Shown: positions 15,241 through 26,383 of the stretch, in pieces
Layout: every line of letters starts with the position of its first letter
Numbering within the stretch: position 1 is the first letter of the stretch
Position numbers and translations under genes: made by a program
Notes under the pieces: generated by a model
What the model saw: the letters and a program-made list of their open reading frames with translations, nothing else
Databases searched by the model: none
Told to the model about the DNA's origin: nothing
Source: Bacillota bacterium
Lineage (GTDB): Bacteria > Bacillota > SHA-98 > UBA4971
Assembly: GCA_012842395.1 (NCBI GenBank)
Contig: DUSX01000020.1
Location: 1 to 43,412, forward strand
Length of the DNA stretch: 43,412 bases
Direction: 5' to 3'

Positions 15241-15847
15241 TACGCTTTGCGCCTCCCTTTTACACCTTAGCCAACCCGGCAGCACACCGACCTGACCCGG
15301 CTTGCCGCCCGCCACATCACCGCGCCGCTCTCCTATCGCCGCCCCACCGGTCGCCCCCTAAGGCGCCGCGCGGCCGCCCGCTGGCATCGCCGCTGCCGTT
15401 CAGCCCCCTCGGACGGCGACGCCCTCTCCGACGGCCCGAGGGGCTAGGACGATGAGACGCAGACGTTCCCGCGTCTGTGCCCCCTTTTGTATTATTCGCC
15501 GCAAGGCGCGGAACTCCTCGCTTCGCGTTAAGGATGCAGCCGAAAGGGACAAAGGGCAGCGAGAGCGCCCTCCCACCAGCCCACTAGCCCACCCGCCCGC
15601 CCCGCTCGCCAGCCCGCCGCTCGCCCAGACCCGTCCCACGCCGACGCCCAACGCCCCTTCCCGCGTGTGCTACGCGCTACGTGGCAATGCGTGGGACGCG
15701 CAGCAGCTCAACGTTTTGACATACTTTCTCCATAGAATCCTGAAAAGAGGTAGGTATAATCATTCTTGAGGATGATTGACAGCGCAGGTCTCCTGTCCGA
15801 AGATTAGAGAGACCCGTTATTGCCGTCTCTCGGGAGGCGTTGAGGAA
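15241..15847. other. Divergent intergenic region between tdh and the response regulator
   Basis: About 600 bases. The left two thirds are GC-rich with no credible gene. Near the right end are TTGACA at 15716-15721 and TATAAT at 15755-15760, separated by 33 bases, too far to be one promoter. The TATAAT may be the -10 of the two-component operon used with an activator, with start near 15767. This is a candidate only. The leftward tdh promoter was not located. Confidence 0.4.
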
Positions 15848-16531
15848 GTGAGCACCATTCTCGTGGTTGAAGACGAGGAGTCCGTGCGGGAGCTCGTTCG
15901 CATGTACCTCGAGAACGAAGGCTTCCGCGTCGAAACCGCGAGCGACGGCGAAGAAGCCCTCAATAAAGCCAGAATCGATCCGCCCGACCTCATCATTCTG
16001 GACATCATGCTGCCCAAGTTCGACGGATGGACGGTATGCAAAGAGGTGAAGAAGACCTCCAACGTACCCATAATCATGCTCAGCGCCAGGACTGAAGAAT
16101 TCGACCGCGTGCTCGGCCTGGAGCTTGGCGCGGACGATTACATCCCCAAGCCATTCAGCCCCCGCGAGATGGTGGCCCGCGTGAGGGCGGTCTTGCGAAG
16201 GGCCGGTGCCAGCCCCGGGGCGAGTGGCCGGGTGCTCACCTACCGCAATCTCACGATCGACCGCGACGCCAACCGGGTGACCATAAAGGACAAGGAGATA
16301 CCCGTGACCCCCAAGGAGTTCGACCTACTCTGGTTCCTGGCGTGCCACCCGGGCCGCGTGTACAGCCGCGAACAGCTCATCGCGGAAGTTTGGGGATACG
16401 ACTACATGGGTGACGCACGCACGGTCGATACACATGTCAAGCGCTTGCGCGAGAAACTCCACGCCGACGGCGACGTTACGTACATTAAGACGGTCTGGGG
16501 ACGCGGCTACAAATTCGAGGCGGGCGAATGA
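15848..16531 (+). CDS. OmpR/PhoB-family DNA-binding response regulator
   Basis: A 227-residue response regulator. The receiver domain (1-118) has the acidic pair VVEDEE, the phospho-acceptor Asp52 in LIILDIMLPKFDGW, the Ser/Thr in MLSARTEE and the Lys in YIPKPFSPREM. The winged-helix effector (about 130-225) ends with the typical VDTHVKRLREKL and TVWGRGYKF. Start is GTG 15848, with GGAGG ten bases ahead; the open frame upstream to 15776 has no better start. Its stop is immediately followed by the kinase ATG, so the two are co-translated. The phased 11-bp half-sites upstream of the efflux operon (18468) are the best candidate binding site. Closest in type to PhoB/PhoP/ResD regulators; which one cannot be settled from sequence alone. 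Confidence 0.92.
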   Translation: MSTILVVEDEESVRELVRMYLENEGFRVETASDGEEALNKARIDPPDLIILDIMLPKFDGWTVCKEVKKTSNVPIIMLSARTEEFDRVLGLELGADDYIPKPFSPREMVARVRAVLRRAGASPGASGRVLTYRNLTIDRDANRVTIKDKEIPVTPKEFDLLWFLACHPGRVYSREQLIAEVWGYDYMGDARTVDTHVKRLREKLHADGDVTYIKTVWGRGYKFEAGE

Positions 16532-18842: not shown

Positions 18843-20006
18843 ATGTCGCTATCCAGACGTCGCTCGGAGAACAGGTTATGGCTCGATTGGGTTGCTGTGC
18901 TCGCGCTGTCCCTTGTGACGGGTGTGATGGTGCTTTCGCCCACAGCGCTGGCGGCTGATGACGCAGTCCAATCCGCTCAGTCCGCGGTGAGGGAGGTGAG
19001 CCTCCAGGAATGCCGTGAGCTCGCGCTGAAATCCAGCTCAAGCGTGCTCCTTGCCGCGAACGCAGTGAAGGATGCCGAGCTCGCGCTGGCGCAGGCAGAG
19101 GCCAGCAACCTCACAAAGCCATCTCCAACGTCACTCTATCAGGCTCGTGTGAACCTTTCCGTCGCACAGAAGAATCTCGAGATAGCCAAGCAGGACGCCG
19201 TGCTCAACACAGACCAGCTTTATTACTCTCTTCTCAAGGCCGAACACCTGGTGGACATCTCCGAACAGGCGCTTACCCTCGCAGAGAAGCAGCTCGAGGT
19301 GGCGAAGGCCAAGGAGAAAGTGGGCATGGCGACCAAGCTCGACTTGATGAGGGCGGAGAACCAGGTCGCCTCAGCGCGGAACAGCCTCGAGAGCGCCACG
19401 CTCAACAGGGATCTCGCGATGGTCTCGCTGAATCAGGCCATCGGGCTCGCGCCGGAGACGGTCCTCCGTCTGAGCGATGAGTTCTCCTACGAGAAGACGG
19501 GGGACCTCGACCTCGAGGCGAGCATTGAATTCGCTCTCGCCAACCGCGTTGAGGTCGCGCAAGCGCAATCGAGCGTCGATGTGGCGGACATGGAGGTCAG
19601 CCTCGCAGACAACGACTTCACGCCTAGGCTCACATACGAGCGGGCCAAGCTCGCAGCGGACGATGCGAGGGTGAGGCTTGCGGACCAGCGCAACAAGATA
19701 GCCATGGCAGTCCGCCAGGCATACGTCTCCCTCAAGCAGGCCGAGGCCAAGGTGGACCTCACGGCCAAGAAGGTCGACGAGGCAAAGGAGAACCTCCGCG
19801 TGACTCAGTTGCTTTTCGACGCGGACATGGCCACGAACCTGGACGTCCTGACCGCTCAGAACCAGTATACTCAAAGCCAAATCGACGCGCTCCAGGCAAT
19901 ATACGACTACAACGTCGCAAGATCCCAGTTTAGGCGGGCTTGCGGTGATACGAACGTCGGGAACACCAACACCACGAGCGCCGAAAACGGAGGTACCGCG
20001 TCGTGA
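18843..20006 (+). CDS. TolC-family protein apparently lacking barrel strands
   Basis: A 387-residue exported protein with signal peptide (cleavage about residue 37, after TALA). It has the two-fold TolC repeat of long coiled-coil helices with the motif GMATKLDLMRAENQ near the middle and FDADMATNLDVLTAQNQ near the end. Where TolC has its two strand hairpins per repeat there are only short turns: NLTKPSPTSLY in the first half and DNDFTPRLTY in the second. It thus looks like a helical tunnel without an outer-membrane barrel and is about 130 residues shorter than its neighbour. Start ATG 18843 has GGGAGGAG nine bases ahead. Its stop overlaps the next gene by four bases. It may act as a periplasmic or cell-wall duct; this is inference. 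Confidence 0.85.
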   Translation: MSLSRRRSENRLWLDWVAVLALSLVTGVMVLSPTALAADDAVQSAQSAVREVSLQECRELALKSSSSVLLAANAVKDAELALAQAEASNLTKPSPTSLYQARVNLSVAQKNLEIAKQDAVLNTDQLYYSLLKAEHLVDISEQALTLAEKQLEVAKAKEKVGMATKLDLMRAENQVASARNSLESATLNRDLAMVSLNQAIGLAPETVLRLSDEFSYEKTGDLDLEASIEFALANRVEVAQAQSSVDVADMEVSLADNDFTPRLTYERAKLAADDARVRLADQRNKIAMAVRQAYVSLKQAEAKVDLTAKKVDEAKENLRVTQLLFDADMATNLDVLTAQNQYTQSQIDALQAIYDYNVARSQFRRACGDTNVGNTNTTSAENGGTAS

Positions 20007-21565
20007 CGAACATACGAACGACAGTCAAGCGCCTCCCCAGGCTCTTGCTCCCGCTCTTGTTCATTCTCGCTGCGATTGCGGCGGGGACCGCCTTCCCAGC
20101 TGCGCCGGGCACCGGGTGGGTCGAAGCTGCAGACAGCGCCGCGCCGCCGGCACCTGCGTCCCCGTCGACGCCGACGTCGACTTCGCCGTCGACGTCCACT
20201 CCAGCGTCGCGAGCGTCGCAACCGGTCCATTTGACGCTGGCTGAGGCGCTCGACCTTGCCGCCAGACAAAACCCGGACCTCGTCAGCAGCATGCAAGCGC
20301 TCGAGCTCGGGCGCTCCAAGCTCCGCGAGAGCAGCGGCGGCAGGCAGCCGAAAGTTGCCGTCCAGGGCTATTATGGTAACACATTCCTCGACTCGGCATC
20401 GGACGCGAGTTCGTCTGTAAGCGTCACGGTGAGCCAGACGCTGCCTGGTGTCCTCCCGGCACCGTTCAGCGTCGGGCTCTCGGCCACCCAACTCGCCGCC
20501 ATGGACCTGGACGAAGCAGAGCTGGAACTTGCCAAGGCCAAACAGAACACGATGTTCAACGTGATCTCCGCGTACCTCGGCGTGCTCAGGGCCCAGCAGA
20601 TGAGGTCTTTGAGCGACGGGTCGGTGGAGTCCGCGTCCAACCTGGTGGATGAGGTGAACACCAAGTTGGCGCTCGGAGTGGCGACTAAGCTCGACCTCAT
20701 GAAGGCGGAAAGCCAGCTCGACCAGGCGAAGTTCAACCAGCTCAAAGCACAGGACGACCTCAATGCCGCGATGCGATCCCTCGCACTGCTCTTGGGTCTG
20801 CCTGCCGAGACTGAGTTCGACCTGGTCAACGAGTTCCAGGTCGAGACGAACGACGAGAGCCTCGAGGAACTCGTGCAGCTCGCCTTCGAAAACCGGAGTG
20901 AGGTGAAACAGGCGAGCTTGTCAGTGGAAAAGGCCCGCGCCGCCGTGGACACGGCACGGCGCGCCCTGTGGCCCTCGGTTGGCCTTTCCGCAAGTTACTC
21001 TAAGCCCGGGGACGTTTCCCTCACCGCCACTGGATCGCTCGGCCTCACAACAGGGCAAGCAGGCTGGACGCTCACGCTCTCGAAAGGGGACGCCGAAGAC
21101 TCTCGCTCCGCGGCGGGAACGCCCGGCGGGATCGGGCTGGGGTCCAAGTCGTCCGAGCCGGTGACGAACGTCGGCATCGAGGTGTCGTGGTCTCTCTGGG
21201 ACGGTGGAGTGACCCGCGAGAAGCTCACGCAGGCCGAGACGACCTTGAAGATGCAACAGGACGCGCTGGAGCGTCAGAAGCAGGCGGTGGTCGAGGACGT
21301 GTACGCGGCCGCAGTGGGATTGAAGCAGGCCGTGCAAAAGCTGGAGCTCGCCGGGAAAGCGGTGGGCGAGGCGGAAGAAGCACTCCGCGTGACCAAGGCG
21401 CGTTTTGATGCGGGAGCGGCGGTCATGGCGGAGGTCATCGACGCCACCCAATCTCTCGCCAGCGCAAAAGTCGAGCAGATCCAGGCCTTGTTCGATTGCT
21501 ACCTCGCACGGGCCCGCTTGGGCAAGGCGGTGGGATTGTTGGGACATGAGGGGTGGAAGCTATGA
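20003..21565 (+). CDS. TolC-family outer-membrane efflux protein with barrel strands
   Basis: A 520-residue TolC-type exit duct. It has a signal peptide (about 1-43), a Ser/Thr/Pro linker (about 44-75), then two helical repeats. Unlike the preceding gene it keeps the strand pairs: KVAVQGYYGNTF and SVSVTVSQTLPG with FSVGLSATQLA in repeat one; SVGLSASYSK, SLTATGSLGL, WTLTLSKG and VGIEVSWSLWDGG in repeat two. GVATKLDLMKAESQ matches the same motif in the neighbour, so the two are paralogues. Start is GTG 20003, in a 4-base overlap with the preceding stop, and it overlaps the next gene by four bases. With the adaptor and ABC genes it would complete a tripartite pump. A true barrel implies an outer membrane. 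Confidence 0.9.
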   Translation: MTNIRTTVKRLPRLLLPLLFILAAIAAGTAFPAAPGTGWVEAADSAAPPAPASPSTPTSTSPSTSTPASRASQPVHLTLAEALDLAARQNPDLVSSMQALELGRSKLRESSGGRQPKVAVQGYYGNTFLDSASDASSSVSVTVSQTLPGVLPAPFSVGLSATQLAAMDLDEAELELAKAKQNTMFNVISAYLGVLRAQQMRSLSDGSVESASNLVDEVNTKLALGVATKLDLMKAESQLDQAKFNQLKAQDDLNAAMRSLALLLGLPAETEFDLVNEFQVETNDESLEELVQLAFENRSEVKQASLSVEKARAAVDTARRALWPSVGLSASYSKPGDVSLTATGSLGLTTGQAGWTLTLSKGDAEDSRSAAGTPGGIGLGSKSSEPVTNVGIEVSWSLWDGGVTREKLTQAETTLKMQQDALERQKQAVVEDVYAAAVGLKQAVQKLELAGKAVGEAEEALRVTKARFDAGAAVMAEVIDATQSLASAKVEQIQALFDCYLARARLGKAVGLLGHEGWKL

Positions 21566-23097
21566 CTGCAAATCGCACAAGAGGTAAAGGCAAGCGCCGC
21601 CTAGCGGTCGTCATGGTCGTCGCCGTGTGCGTGGTGGGGATAGCGGGATACGGCGTCTATAGGGCATTCTTCGCCGGTAACCGGGGTGCCGCAAGCTCGC
21701 AGCAGTTGTACCGGCTTGTCCCGGTGCAGAGAGGGTCGATCACCCTGAAGATCACGGCCTCGGGCACCGTAAGCGCAGGTTCGACCTACGAGGTGGCTCC
21801 CAAGGTCAGCGGCACCGTCACGCAGGTCCTGATTAAACAGGGAGACGCTGTGAGGAAGGGCCAGGAGCTCGTCATTCTCGATGATACCGATGCCCGCCAG
21901 CGTCTCCAGGAAGCCAAGGATAACCTGGCAGTTGCAGAGGCGAAGCTCGTACAGGCTCAAACGCAGGCGAAGCTCGCCCCCACGCAGAACCAGCTCGCTG
22001 TCGAGCAGGCCAGGGTAAACCTGCTCAACGCTGAGGCAAAGCTGGCACAGCTCAAAGAGGGAGCAACGACCCAGGACATCGAGCAGGCCAAGTCCCAGGT
22101 CACCCAAGCGCAGCTCTCGGTGGATGCCGCGAATAAGGAGTACGAGCGCAACAAGACCCTCTTCGAACAGGGCGCGGTGACGCGGCAGCAACTGGAGAGC
22201 GCCGAGAACAAGTATCTTACCGCCGTTGAATCGCTGAAGTCGGCGCAGCAGAAGCTCGATTCGCTGCTTGCGGGGCCAGATCCTGACGAGCTTGCGGCGG
22301 CTGAGGCGGCGGTGTCCCAGGCCAAGCTGAACCTAAGCCTCGCCGAGGCCAACGCCGATACAACGAGCGCCCAGCAAGAGCTCCTCACCGCGCAGGCTCA
22401 GGTAGTGCAGGCCAGAAACGCTGTGAGCGCGGCAGAGCGTGACCTCGCTCTCACGCGGGTCGTGTCTCCCATAGATGGAACGGTCACGCAGGTCTCGGCG
22501 CAGGTAGGACAGGTTGTGGGACAATCGAGCGTCCTCGCGACCGTGGCGGATCTCACGTACCTTCAGGTCGTGGCGAATGTGGATGAGACGGACGTCCACA
22601 GCGTTAAGGTCGGCCAACAGGCCGATGTCAAGGTGGAGTCCCTCCCGGACAAGGTCTTTAGCGGTGTAGTTGAAAGCGTTGCTTCCCAAGGCAAGGTCAT
22701 CAGCAGCGTGGTTTACTTCGAGGTAACCATCAAGGTCACCGACGACACCAGGACCTTGAAACCCGGGATGACGGCCGACGTCGACATCGTCATGGATCGC
22801 CGCACAAACGTGCTCACGATCCCCAACGCGGCGCTGGAGGAGCGGCGAGGGCGCCTGATGGCGCGGACCCTGGATGAAAAGGGTGAGCCGTTCTTCAAGC
22901 GGGTTGAGCTCGGCATAACTGACGGGACCACAACCGAGGTCATATCGGGGCTCGCGGAGGGCGACATGGTAGCAGTCAGAAGCTCTGCTGCCGCCTCCAC
23001 GGGTACTACCGGAACGAGCAATCAGCGGAACTCGAACCGCACGACTCGTGGCATGCCGGAGGGCCCGGGAATGTTCATCATGGGGGGACCTCGATAG
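21562..23097 (+). CDS. macA: MacA/HlyD-type periplasmic adaptor protein
   Basis: A 511-residue membrane fusion protein linking the inner-membrane ABC transporter to TolC. One N-terminal membrane anchor (about 14-33) follows basic residues. Next come a barrel-like strand segment, the first lipoyl half (GTVTQVLIKQGDAVRKGQELVILD), a very long coiled coil (about 115-300, rich in Gln, Ala and Glu) and the second lipoyl half (VVSPIDGTVTQVSAQVGQVV). The beta-barrel domain (VNVDETDVHSVKVGQQADVKVES) and a membrane-proximal domain follow. The C-terminal tail is Ser/Thr/Asn-rich with an MFIMGGPR end. Start ATG 21562, overlapping the preceding stop by four bases. The coiled coil is longer than in E. coli MacA, which may suit the barrel-less TolC-like partner. 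Confidence 0.9.
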   Translation: MTANRTRGKGKRRLAVVMVVAVCVVGIAGYGVYRAFFAGNRGAASSQQLYRLVPVQRGSITLKITASGTVSAGSTYEVAPKVSGTVTQVLIKQGDAVRKGQELVILDDTDARQRLQEAKDNLAVAEAKLVQAQTQAKLAPTQNQLAVEQARVNLLNAEAKLAQLKEGATTQDIEQAKSQVTQAQLSVDAANKEYERNKTLFEQGAVTRQQLESAENKYLTAVESLKSAQQKLDSLLAGPDPDELAAAEAAVSQAKLNLSLAEANADTTSAQQELLTAQAQVVQARNAVSAAERDLALTRVVSPIDGTVTQVSAQVGQVVGQSSVLATVADLTYLQVVANVDETDVHSVKVGQQADVKVESLPDKVFSGVVESVASQGKVISSVVYFEVTIKVTDDTRTLKPGMTADVDIVMDRRTNVLTIPNAALEERRGRLMARTLDEKGEPFFKRVELGITDGTTTEVISGLAEGDMVAVRSSAAASTGTTGTSNQRNSNRTTRGMPEGPGMFIMGGPR

Positions 23098-23176
23098 ACG
23101 CGAACGGCACGCCGGGGCCGCGGGCCGCGCCGGCCCGTGACCCGTCCCGGCGGCGCACGTATGGGGTGAGTTGAGC

Positions 23177-23947
23177 GTGATCAGAGTTGACGGGTTAAAA
23201 AAGACATACAAGCTCGGCAGCGTCGAGGTCGAAGCGCTCCGGGGCGTGTCTCTCAGCATCGACGAGGGAGAATTCGTCGCTATCATGGGCCCGTCTGGCT
23301 CGGGGAAGACGACGTTCATGAACATCCTCGGTTGCCTGGACCAGCCCACGGAAGGGACTTATTCCCTCGATGGGGTGCTCGTGAGCGACATGAACGACAC
23401 TGAGCTCGCCCGCGTGAGAAACCAGCGCATAGGGTTCGTGTTTCAGACGTTCAACCTCCTCCCGAGGCTGGATGCTGTGGCCAACGTCGAGCTGCCGCTG
23501 GTTTACGCGGGCGTCCCGAGGCACACCCGGAGGCTCGTTGCGATGAAGGCTCTTGAGGCGGTGGGGCTCGCGGAGCGTCTCCATCACAAACCTTCGGAGC
23601 TCTCGGGCGGGCAACAACAGAGGGTCGCCATAGCGCGAAGCCTAGTGACGCGGCCAGAGATAATCCTTGCGGACGAACCCACGGGGAATTTGGACACCAA
23701 AGCGGGCGCGGAGATCATGGCGATATTCCAGGCGCTCAACAACACCGGCATCACCGTGGTCCTTGTCACCCACGATGCTGACATTGCGCAGTACGCCAAG
23801 AGAATCGTCCGCTTTCGCGACGGCGTCATAGTCGCGGATGAACCGGTCGCCTCGAGGACGATAGCGGAGCGGGACGAGGCGCTGGACGCGTCGATCGCCG
23901 GCCTCACGCGTGGGCGCGCCCCTGAGGAGGAGGTGAAGGCTGGATGA
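23177..23947 (+). CDS. ABC transporter ATPase, MacB/LolD/FtsE type
   Basis: A 256-residue ATPase that powers the adjacent permease. Walker A is GPSGSGKT (38-45), the Q loop [10 protein letters not shown] (88-97), the signature [14 protein letters not shown] (142-155), Walker [13 protein letters not shown] (162-173) and the switch His199 in VLVTHD. This spacing is typical of the MacB/LolD group. I start at GTG 23177 behind GGGGTGAG; TTG 23171 in the same frame has no room for a ribosome site. A C-terminal tail of about 35 residues after VRFRDGVIV is longer than usual. Overlaps the permease start by four bases. Confidence 0.93.
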
Positions 23948-25152
23948 ACCTGCTCGAAAGCGTCCGCACCGCACTCCTCGGCATCACCAGCAACAAGATG
24001 CGTTCGGGCCTCACGATGCTGGGGGTCATCATAGGGGTTGCCGCAGTGGTCATCATGGTAGCGATCGGCGAGGGAGCAAACCGCCAGGTGTCATCGCAGA
24101 TAGAGCGACTCGGCTCTAACCTCCTCGTCATCATGCCTGGCCGGACCCGGGAGCCGGGTGCACAGATAAGGGGAGCGTTCGGAAGCATGGACGTCCTCAC
24201 GATGGACGACGTCCAGGCGATACGCGACGAGTGCCCATCCGTAAGCGCCGTGGCCCCGGAGGTTTCACGAGGCACCACTGTAAGGTACGGAACGAGCAGC
24301 CTTCAGACGCAGGTCGTGGCCACGACCCCGGATTACCTGACGGTCAGGGCGTTCAACGTCGCCTCGGGCTCGTTCTTCACAGAACAAGACGTTGAGTACG
24401 CCACGAAAGTTGCCGTGGTGGGGCAAGGCGTCGTAGACGAGCTCTTTTCAGGCGCTGACCCCATCGGGCAGGAGCTCAAGGTCGGCCAGGTACGCCTGAA
24501 GGTCATCGGCGTCATGGAGTCCAAGGGACAAAGCGGCATGACCAACATAGACGATGCCATATACGTTCCGATAACGACCGCGCAGAGGCGCCTCCTCGGG
24601 ACCAAGTACGTGCGCACAATCTACGCCCAGGCCAAGGACGCGAAATCCATGGACGCGGCCAATGACGAGATAAGCGCGGTCCTCGCTGCCCGCTTGGGTA
24701 GCACCGACGCTTTCTACGTGAGAAACCAGGCCGATGTCCTCAGCGCCGCCCAGGACGTCACGCGCGTGTTCACGGTGCTTCTCGCGGGCATCGCCAGCGT
24801 GTCCCTGCTTGTCGGCGGGATCGGAGTCATGAACATAATGCTCGTGTCCGTTACCGAACGAACGAGAGAGATAGGGCTCCGCAAGGCCATCGGCGCGAGG
24901 ACCGTGGATATCCTGATGCAGTTCCTCATAGAGTCGATCGTGCTCAGCCTGGTGGGGGGAGTCGTCGGGATCATCGTCGGCATCGCAGGGTCGAGGATCG
25001 CGGCGCGCGTCGCCGGATGGCCGTCGGCCGTCTCTGTCGGTGCCGTGTTGGTGCCGTTCTGCTTCTCGCTTGCCGTCGGCCTGTTCTTCGGGATTTACCC
25101 GGCGAGCAGGGCGGCACGGCTGAACCCCGTTGAAGCCTTGCGCTATGAGTGA
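23944..25152 (+). CDS. macB: MacB-type ABC transporter permease
   Basis: A 402-residue type VII ABC permease without its own ATPase domain, unlike E. coli MacB. The N-terminal membrane helix is near 15-38 ([20 protein letters not shown]), followed by a large extracytoplasmic MacB core (about 45-275). The FtsX domain has three helices near 275-395, with the [20 protein letters not shown] motif and [10 protein letters not shown]. Such proteins drive the adaptor-TolC tunnel by mechanical movement rather than carrying substrate across the membrane. Substrates in the family include macrolides, peptides and lipoproteins; none can be chosen here. The ATG overlaps the ATPase stop. Confidence 0.93.
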
Positions 25153-25262
25153 GCACGAAGACCAAACGCGAGTGAGACTCTTGACAGCTCCCACGTTGAG
25201 GTTCAGCGGTCTTGTGAGCAAGTGATAAGTAATGGCAGTAATGGCCGGCGGAGAAGGGCGCG

Positions 25263-25319
25263 GAATTCGGGGATCCGGCCGGTTCGGTTGGCGGCTGAAC
25301 TGGCCGGATTCTCCCGATC
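25263..25319. repeat. Imperfect inverted repeat after the permease gene
   Basis: GGATCCGGCCGGTTC (25271-25285) pairs with GAACTGGCCGGATTC (25297-25311), and outer bases extend the pairing imperfectly. The hairpin lies between the permease stop and the next gene's likely ribosome site. It could be a processing or attenuation element; no T-run follows. It resembles the dispersed repeats in the window only loosely. Confidence 0.4.
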
Positions 25320-25360
25320 CGTGGCTGGCCTCGCTCCCTGGGGAGGAGGTGGAACGCGAA

Positions 25361-26383
25361 GTGGAACGCGAAATGGTTCGTGCGAAGCGTGGCTTGGACT
25401 CGGAAACGGCGGGAATCGCAAACCTGCCGCGTTGTGCGCGAGCACAGGAATGCGCGCGAGGAGCGGATGGAACACCGTGGGCGCCGCCAGCCCGTCCGGC
25501 CGGCCCCGCTGTCGGCTCCACTGCCGAAGCACGCAGGCTCGTGACGGCCTGGAGCACCGCGAGGCACATCAGGGGCAGTAGCAGTAGCAAGGGCAAGGGC
25601 AGCGCTAGAACCGGGACCAGGGGCGCGCAGACGGTGCTCGCGGCACTGGCGCTGACCATGATAGCTGTCACGGCAAGCGTGATCGCCGACGAGCCCGCCG
25701 CGCGTGCCGCGGCCATGGGGCTGGCCCAAGCCGGCGTCCAGGTCCAGGCTCAAGCGCCGGCGACGCGAGGCGGCCAATTGGTGGTGCAAAGAGAAGCCGT
25801 TGAACAGGACCTCGTTTGGCTTCTTGCCGGCATCATGGACATGGACCGCGACAAGAAGCTCGCCCTGACCCGGAAGCAGGCGGCGGACATTTGGCCGACC
25901 TTCAAGTCGCTCGCTGACAAAGGCCTCATCCGCCTGGAGGTTGACCCGGCCCAGTTCGAGTTCGGAAATCGTTTTGGATGGCAAGGCCCGGTGCCAGGAC
26001 AGACACAGGGTCAAACCCAAGGGCAGGGCGGCGGCCCGTCACAGGTAGACAGCGCGAGAGCCCAGGAGCTTCGCAAGCAGCGGCAGGCAAGGGAGGAAGC
26101 CCTCCGGCAGGCCATCGATGACATAGAGAAGACCCTCTCGGCGAAGCAGCTCGCGTACGTCGACAACTTCGACTTCAACCCAGCGGACTACGGCCTGGCG
26201 CCCAGGCTGGGAGGGGCTCGCCCGCAGGTGGCGCAGAACCAAAACCAGGGGCAATGGAGTCCGCCGAGCCAGCAAGAGATGCAGAGGCTCATAAAGACAG
26301 CAAGGGAAAACGCCCAGAAACTCGCGGACTTCTACAAGAAGTTCCAGGCCTTCATCCAGAAAAAGGCGGGCATCAAGGCATAG
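25361..26383 (+). CDS. Membrane-anchored or secreted protein with LTxxQ-like motifs
   Basis: About 340 residues, no firm family. A low-complexity N-terminal part is followed by one hydrophobic segment (about 90-112, TVLAALALTMIAVTASVIA), then an exported Gln- and Ala-rich part. Two LTxxQ-like motifs, LTRKQ (about 169) and LSAKQ (about 259), sit in helical surroundings (KQAADIWPTFKSLADKG; ARAQELRKQRQAREEALRQ), reminiscent of Spy/CpxP-type envelope chaperones. The spacer has Gly/Gln repeats (GQTQGQTQGQGGG). The true start is unclear: the frame opens at 25232, but I chose GTG 25361 behind GGAGGAGG, after the hairpin. A shorter product starting just before the hydrophobic segment is possible. Placed last in the efflux operon, it may help fold or sense envelope proteins; that is inference. 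Confidence 0.6.
   Translation: MEREMVRAKRGLDSETAGIANLPRCARAQECARGADGTPWAPPARPAGPAVGSTAEARRLVTAWSTARHIRGSSSSKGKGSARTGTRGAQTVLAALALTMIAVTASVIADEPAARAAAMGLAQAGVQVQAQAPATRGGQLVVQREAVEQDLVWLLAGIMDMDRDKKLALTRKQAADIWPTFKSLADKGLIRLEVDPAQFEFGNRFGWQGPVPGQTQGQTQGQGGGPSQVDSARAQELRKQRQAREEALRQAIDDIEKTLSAKQLAYVDNFDFNPADYGLAPRLGGARPQVAQNQNQGQWSPPSQQEMQRLIKTARENAQKLADFYKKFQAFIQKKAGIKA

Follow-up and report, generated by a model that had tools for sequence, protein, structure and literature searches.

This locus raises the question of why a single export operon should encode two TolC-family proteins, one of which apparently lacks the strands that build the outer-membrane barrel. Known tripartite pumps make use of one homotrimeric outer-membrane factor. 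The window, by which we mean the whole stretch of 43,412 nucleotides analysed here, comes from a Bacillota genome of 3.1 Mb (98% complete). Genes for BamA/Omp85, TamB, and LpxC are found in this genome, all three on contig C10, and the organism should therefore have an LPS-type outer membrane. The operon consists, in this order, of a response regulator, a histidine kinase, a gap of ~490 bases, the strandless gene, the barrel gene, the adaptor, an ABC ATPase, and a MacB permease:

15776..16531, + strand: OmpR-type response regulator (Response_reg and Trans_reg_C), upstream of the pump genes; also found beside pump genes in loci L037-L039
16532..18349, + strand: sensor histidine kinase (HAMP, PAS, HisKA, and HATPase)
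18843..20006, + strand: strandless (barrel-less) TolC-family protein, 387 aa, with signal peptide
19110..19124, + strand: turn 1 (residues 90-94) at the position of the first strand hairpin, from the AlphaFold2 secondary structure
19608..19625, + strand: turn 2 (residues 256-261, NDFTP region) at the position of the second strand hairpin, from the AlphaFold2 model; locally conserved
20003..21565, + strand: barrel-bearing TolC-family partner, 520 aa, GTG start
20351..20446, + strand: repeat-1 barrel insert of the partner, ~39 extra residues, two putative strands (insert length, sequence inspection)
20975..21202, + strand: enlarged repeat-2 barrel insert of the partner, ~80 extra residues, four putative strands (insert length, low-confidence AlphaFold2 model)
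21562..23097, + strand: periplasmic adaptor (MacA/HlyD type) with a long hairpin and an RLS-like tip (ERNKTLFEQGAVT)
23171..23947, + strand: ABC ATPase, MacB-type, as a separate gene (ABC_tran)
23944..25152, + strand: MacB-type permease (MacB_PCD and FtsX)

The operon thus unites MacB permease, ATPase, and adaptor of a MacAB-type set with TolC-family genes. MacB and MacA are the best-fitting NCBIfam models for permease and adaptor, respectively, with scores below the NCBIfam equivalog cut-offs. The barrel gene overlaps both of its neighbours by 4 bases, GTGA at the junction with the strandless gene and ATGA at the junction with the adaptor, whose ATG (21562) lies within the barrel-gene stop overlap. 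A profile search with PF02321 (OEP) finds full repeats in the window genome only in the genes 18843-20006 and 20003-21565; the third match is weak and partial, extending over 64 profile positions. Downstream of the permease lies an ORF (25232-26383) with no Pfam or NCBIfam match, whose C-terminal part (from ~25709) is conserved behind the permease in L037-L039 with 65% identity.

The strandless gene extends from ATG 18843 to the stop at 20004-20006. Its product matches PF02321 in two stretches with 115 bits (cut-off 22); both matches begin at profile position 85-86, leaving positions 1-84 unmatched in either repeat. The AlphaFold2 model (mean pLDDT 79.5, body mostly >80) is all helix, consisting of helices 66-89, 95-159, 165-200, 236-255, 262-326, and 332-367 that are connected at the upper end through a five-residue and a six-residue turn (90-94 and 256-261); two additional 3-residue strands are located in linkers, and there are no barrel strands. 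In a Foldseek comparison with the PDB, all 44 of the 44 matches at E <0.001 are TolC-family chains (TMq ~0.5-0.7, probability 1.0), and the alignment of the family profile jumps over TolC residues 247-300, the region of turn 2. The proposal, made from the sequence alone, that this protein has short turns where TolC has strand hairpins is borne out, and the predicted structure contains no ordinary four-strand barrel. From helix start to tip the two repeats measure 109 and 105 residues; unpaired barrel proteins have values of 144-163 (one 184) and 143-155, strandless proteins from BamA-negative genomes of 120-138 and 105-111. The lengths of 109 and 105 are near-constant over ~30 family-level groups, which were set by genome and sequence similarity. 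The canonical TolC-family tips are kept and are, together with turn 2, the best conserved elements of the protein. We note that the otherwise conserved glycine of tip 2 is an aspartate in the window clade (residue 328, window 19824-19826) and in L048, L049, and L055; the glycine of tip 1 is kept.

The barrel gene runs from GTG 20003 to the stop at 21563-21565 and encodes 520 amino acids. The protein matches OEP profile positions 1-187 twice, in agreement with the sequence-only reading, which had assigned strands to both of its repeats. Its AlphaFold2 model is poor (pLDDT 53.7; six close sequences) and has four strands in repeat 2. The barrel inserts, counted as extra residues relative to strandless proteins, differ between paired and unpaired barrel proteins. 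Unpaired proteins (n=20) have median values of 41 for the longer and 39 for the shorter hairpin, paired proteins (n=40) of 73.5 and 35.5, with a total of ~110 extra residues in paired as against ~80 in unpaired proteins. The insert is asymmetric in 38 of the 40 paired and in 2 of the 20 unpaired proteins, and the difference persists if only one locus per group is retained (27 groups, p = 1.3e-7). By this measure the inserts are small in the two paired exceptions, L096 and L098. Repeat 1 contains the enlarged hairpin in 24 loci and repeat 2 in 14 loci, and both types separate on the tree (support 76); the partner in the window has 39 extra residues in repeat 1 and 80 in repeat 2. A crude count of amphipathic strand-like segments yields medians of 8 for paired barrel proteins, 6 for unpaired barrel proteins, and 2 for paired strandless proteins. 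If the latter is taken as background, about six strands result for paired and about four for unpaired barrel proteins. Insert lengths, the crude count, and one low-confidence model therefore suggest that paired barrel proteins have six strands per protomer instead of four. The window protein also carries a Pro/Ser/Thr-rich stretch behind its signal peptide (20132-20224), which is absent from five relatives.

In diderm lineages the strandless gene is regularly paired with a barrel gene. Among 44 such loci (36 from genomes in which BamA was found and 8 from genomes of the same class in which BamA was not looked for), 43 have a strand-bearing partner adjoining or in the same operon; in the single exception, L091, the contig ends behind the strandless gene. 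Three of the 43 partners are incomplete (L049, L095, and L101). Loci were chosen for the strandless gene (L107 for the barrel gene), hence the count applies in one direction, from the strandless to the barrel gene. No strandless neighbour is present beside 20 barrel genes taken from BamA-positive genomes, and these barrel genes are of the ordinary balanced type. The pair spans ~30 family-level groups and is kept in related MAGs of the window clade; a search with the single protein recovered close relatives and, beyond them, a few distant genomes. A search of related genomes for the same two genes, as proposed with the sequence-only reading, thus recovers them both nearby and across diderm lineages. 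The transporters encoded along with the pairs are of the ABC/MacB or the RND type (RND confirmed in L049), the order is short-long, long-short, or split by adaptor, ATPase, and permease, and the genomes G001, G013, and G031 harbor two or three pair operons each. What is conserved is therefore the pair rather than one particular operon.

The distribution across the phylum was surveyed in 199 genomes, of which 49 encode Omp85 and 149 have OEP matches. Among the ~150 best OEP matches listed, by E-value, those including the strand part come from at least 38 BamA-positive and at least 1 BamA-negative genomes, those without it from at least 11 BamA-positive and at least 20 BamA-negative genomes. As read from the table of a search with the strandless profile, a strandless protein is encoded by about 28 of the 49 BamA-positive genomes. 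BamA-negative genomes contributed 19 loci in which the stretch taken contains the strandless gene and no barrel gene. Strandless proteins occur alone in BamA-negative genomes and paired in diderms, and the strandless part is therefore the one that is independent of an outer membrane. Relatives in which one of the two genes is missing, which had been named as possible counter-evidence, thus do exist, namely the solitary strandless genes of BamA-negative genomes and the unpaired balanced barrel genes of BamA-positive genomes, but all are of a different kind. Several of the 19 loci have an RND-sized gene between adaptor and strandless gene; in L077 (9077-12220) it encodes an RND (ACR_tran) transporter, i.e. 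a tripartite-type RND set in a BamA-negative genome without an outer membrane. The strandless proteins of BamA-negative genomes (L068-L087) have an insert of ~10-30 residues in hairpin 1, helix-like by sequence, which is absent from paired ones (120-138 versus 109 residues). The barrel-type TolC operon in the one BamA-negative MAG with a strand-bearing match (L086, G097 contig 160) is probably contamination, since it is located on an 8.8 kb contig of a fragmented assembly and a congener has no such gene.

Both genes are under purifying selection (dN/dS 0.12 for the strandless and 0.14 for the barrel gene), and together with the conservation in related MAGs this argues that the pair is not an artefact. 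It has been suggested that the shared TKLDLM motif reveals a duplication. This argument does not hold: TKLDLM is the usual tip motif of the TolC family, the two window proteins are 2.54 substitutions per site apart on a 125-sequence tree, and each groups with its counterparts from other loci. Near-sister short and long proteins within one locus are absent from that tree, and we rejected a recent duplication in favor of an old divergence. A further possibility, that the strandless gene is a decaying and functionless duplicate of the barrel gene, would account for the missing membrane part. It is incompatible with the selection and conservation data, namely a dN/dS of 0.12, an amino-acid identity above that of the barrel gene (82.5% versus 76.1%), the near-constant repeat lengths over the ~30 groups, and the old divergence of the types, and we consider it ruled out. 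The best tree places 11 short proteins among the paired barrel proteins with support of 60-72. Two independent origins of the strandless type were not adopted in view of this limited support and because forcing all strandless proteins into one origin, at a cost of 33 log-likelihood units, is not rejected (AU p = 0.17).

Barrel-less TolC-like proteins have been described for monoderm Firmicutes (Stubenrauch et al. 2022, PMC8809574). That paper reports that part of the barrel is omitted in the C. difficile protein, contains an S-layer hypothesis, remarks on one operon with two TolC-like genes in L. gingivalis, and leaves open what the monoderm proteins do. The statement that no pump of this form is described therefore needs restriction: barrel-less proteins and a two-gene operon are published, whereas neither the pairing of a barrel-less with a barrel-bearing protein nor an enlarged insert occurs in the sections of PMC8809574 consulted, and a literature search of open-licence papers found no paper on such pairs or enlarged barrel inserts in diderm Bacillota. 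The fixed pairing of both types in diderm Bacillota and the enlarged asymmetric insert of the partner are thus apparently new. With the monoderm proteins the strandless protein shares the missing barrel part and an operon with adaptor and transporter; the window host differs by BamA, TamB, and LpxC. Compared to strandless proteins of BamA-negative genomes, the window type lacks the insert in the first hairpin and comes with a barrel partner. The duplicated OEP repeat, the helical tunnel fold, and the tip motifs are common to TolC, OprM, and CusC, which in known structures form homotrimers and contribute four strands per protomer, as opposed to zero and apparently six in the window pair. MacAB-TolC likewise combines a MacB-type permease, a MacA/HlyD-type adaptor with an RLS-like tip, and a TolC-family duct, but the window encodes ATPase and permease separately, has two genes for the duct, and its adaptor hairpin measures ~94 residues per arm.

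Since the pair of strandless and barrel protein is conserved over ~30 family-level groups, a two-component duct, either stacked or heteromeric, is a reasonable reading, and we assign a probability of roughly 0.8 to both proteins being used jointly in one duct. Each of the two genes would then supply one part of a common exit duct of a MacAB-type pump, whatever substrate it may carry, in an LPS-type diderm of the Bacillota. The strandless protein would assemble as a trimer into a purely helical tunnel and, like TolC, contact the adaptor hairpins through its conserved tips; the solitary relatives in BamA-negative Bacillota presumably dock likewise. The barrel partner would form the outer-membrane end with some six strands per protomer. 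For an obligate duct of strandless and six-strand protein, whether as a 2:1 heterotrimer with 12 barrel strands or as two stacked tunnels ending in an 18-strand barrel, we see even chances; neither is described in searchable (open-licence) papers. If true, a conserved pair in which one protein has lost its strands and the other has apparently gained some would represent a new design of a trans-envelope duct. The occurrence of the strandless protein alone without BamA and paired with BamA also bears on how pumps changed upon loss or gain of the outer membrane in the Bacillota, and provides a handle on the role of the monoderm TolC-like proteins.

We rank an end-to-end stack as the most likely arrangement, tentatively and at slightly below even chances, with the strandless protein as inner segment on the adaptor and the barrel protein beyond. 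Both ends of a strandless trimer would carry six hairpin turns, as would fit a tube placed between adaptor and barrel protein. The upper ring of turns could interlock with the six tips at the lower end of the barrel protein, similar to adaptor tips with TolC. Stacking is further favored by the association of the enlarged insert with pairing, by canonical tips on the strandless protein together with the RLS-like adaptor tip, whose role is known from MacA and AcrA, and by the stop/start overlaps that join short, long, and adaptor genes. The barrel partner is the more diverged of the two proteins, which would fit a protein that has lost contact with the adaptor, but measured with profiles of unpaired proteins the divergence is spread over all segments; a tip-specific loss of adaptor docking was rejected accordingly. 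The main rival, doubtful in our view, is a single TolC-like trimer of two barrel proteins and one barrel-less protein. It would suit the ~110 instead of 80 extra residues of paired barrel proteins, consistent with six strands instead of four, as 2 x 6 + 0 gives a canonical barrel of 12 strands on a 12-helix tunnel, and also the location of the extra hairpin in repeat 1 or repeat 2 depending on the clade, as if only the total counted. Nor does it require a longer envelope, while the ~94 residues per arm of window-clade adaptor hairpins mean that stacking would need a wide periplasm. Yet we know of no asymmetric 2:1 outer-membrane factors, adaptor docking would be required of all six tips although those of the partner are degenerate in many loci, and a homotrimer with an 18-strand barrel accounts for the six strands equally well. 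Improbable, finally, are two separate homotrimers that work with one transporter, each at its own time or for its own substrates, or a strandless protein that acts outside the duct, as a chaperone or spacer in the periplasm. In BamA-negative genomes the strandless protein evidently functions with no barrel partner, and tips can still be recognised in both proteins; however, the pair is kept across very different operons and gene orders, and an insert that is enlarged only in paired proteins points to structural dependence of one protein on the other.

An added tunnel might be offset by shorter adaptor hairpins. This idea was dropped, as there is no overall difference in hairpin length between paired and unpaired loci (p = 0.69 and 0.21), which also counts against stacking. 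A subset deviates: in 6 of the 35 measured paired loci (L051, L089, L090, L095, L097, and L106) the adaptor is almost without a hairpin, with 42 aligned residues between the lipoyl halves as compared to a minimum of 61 in 31 unpaired loci. In those six loci the strandless protein might substitute for the hairpin that the adaptor lacks.
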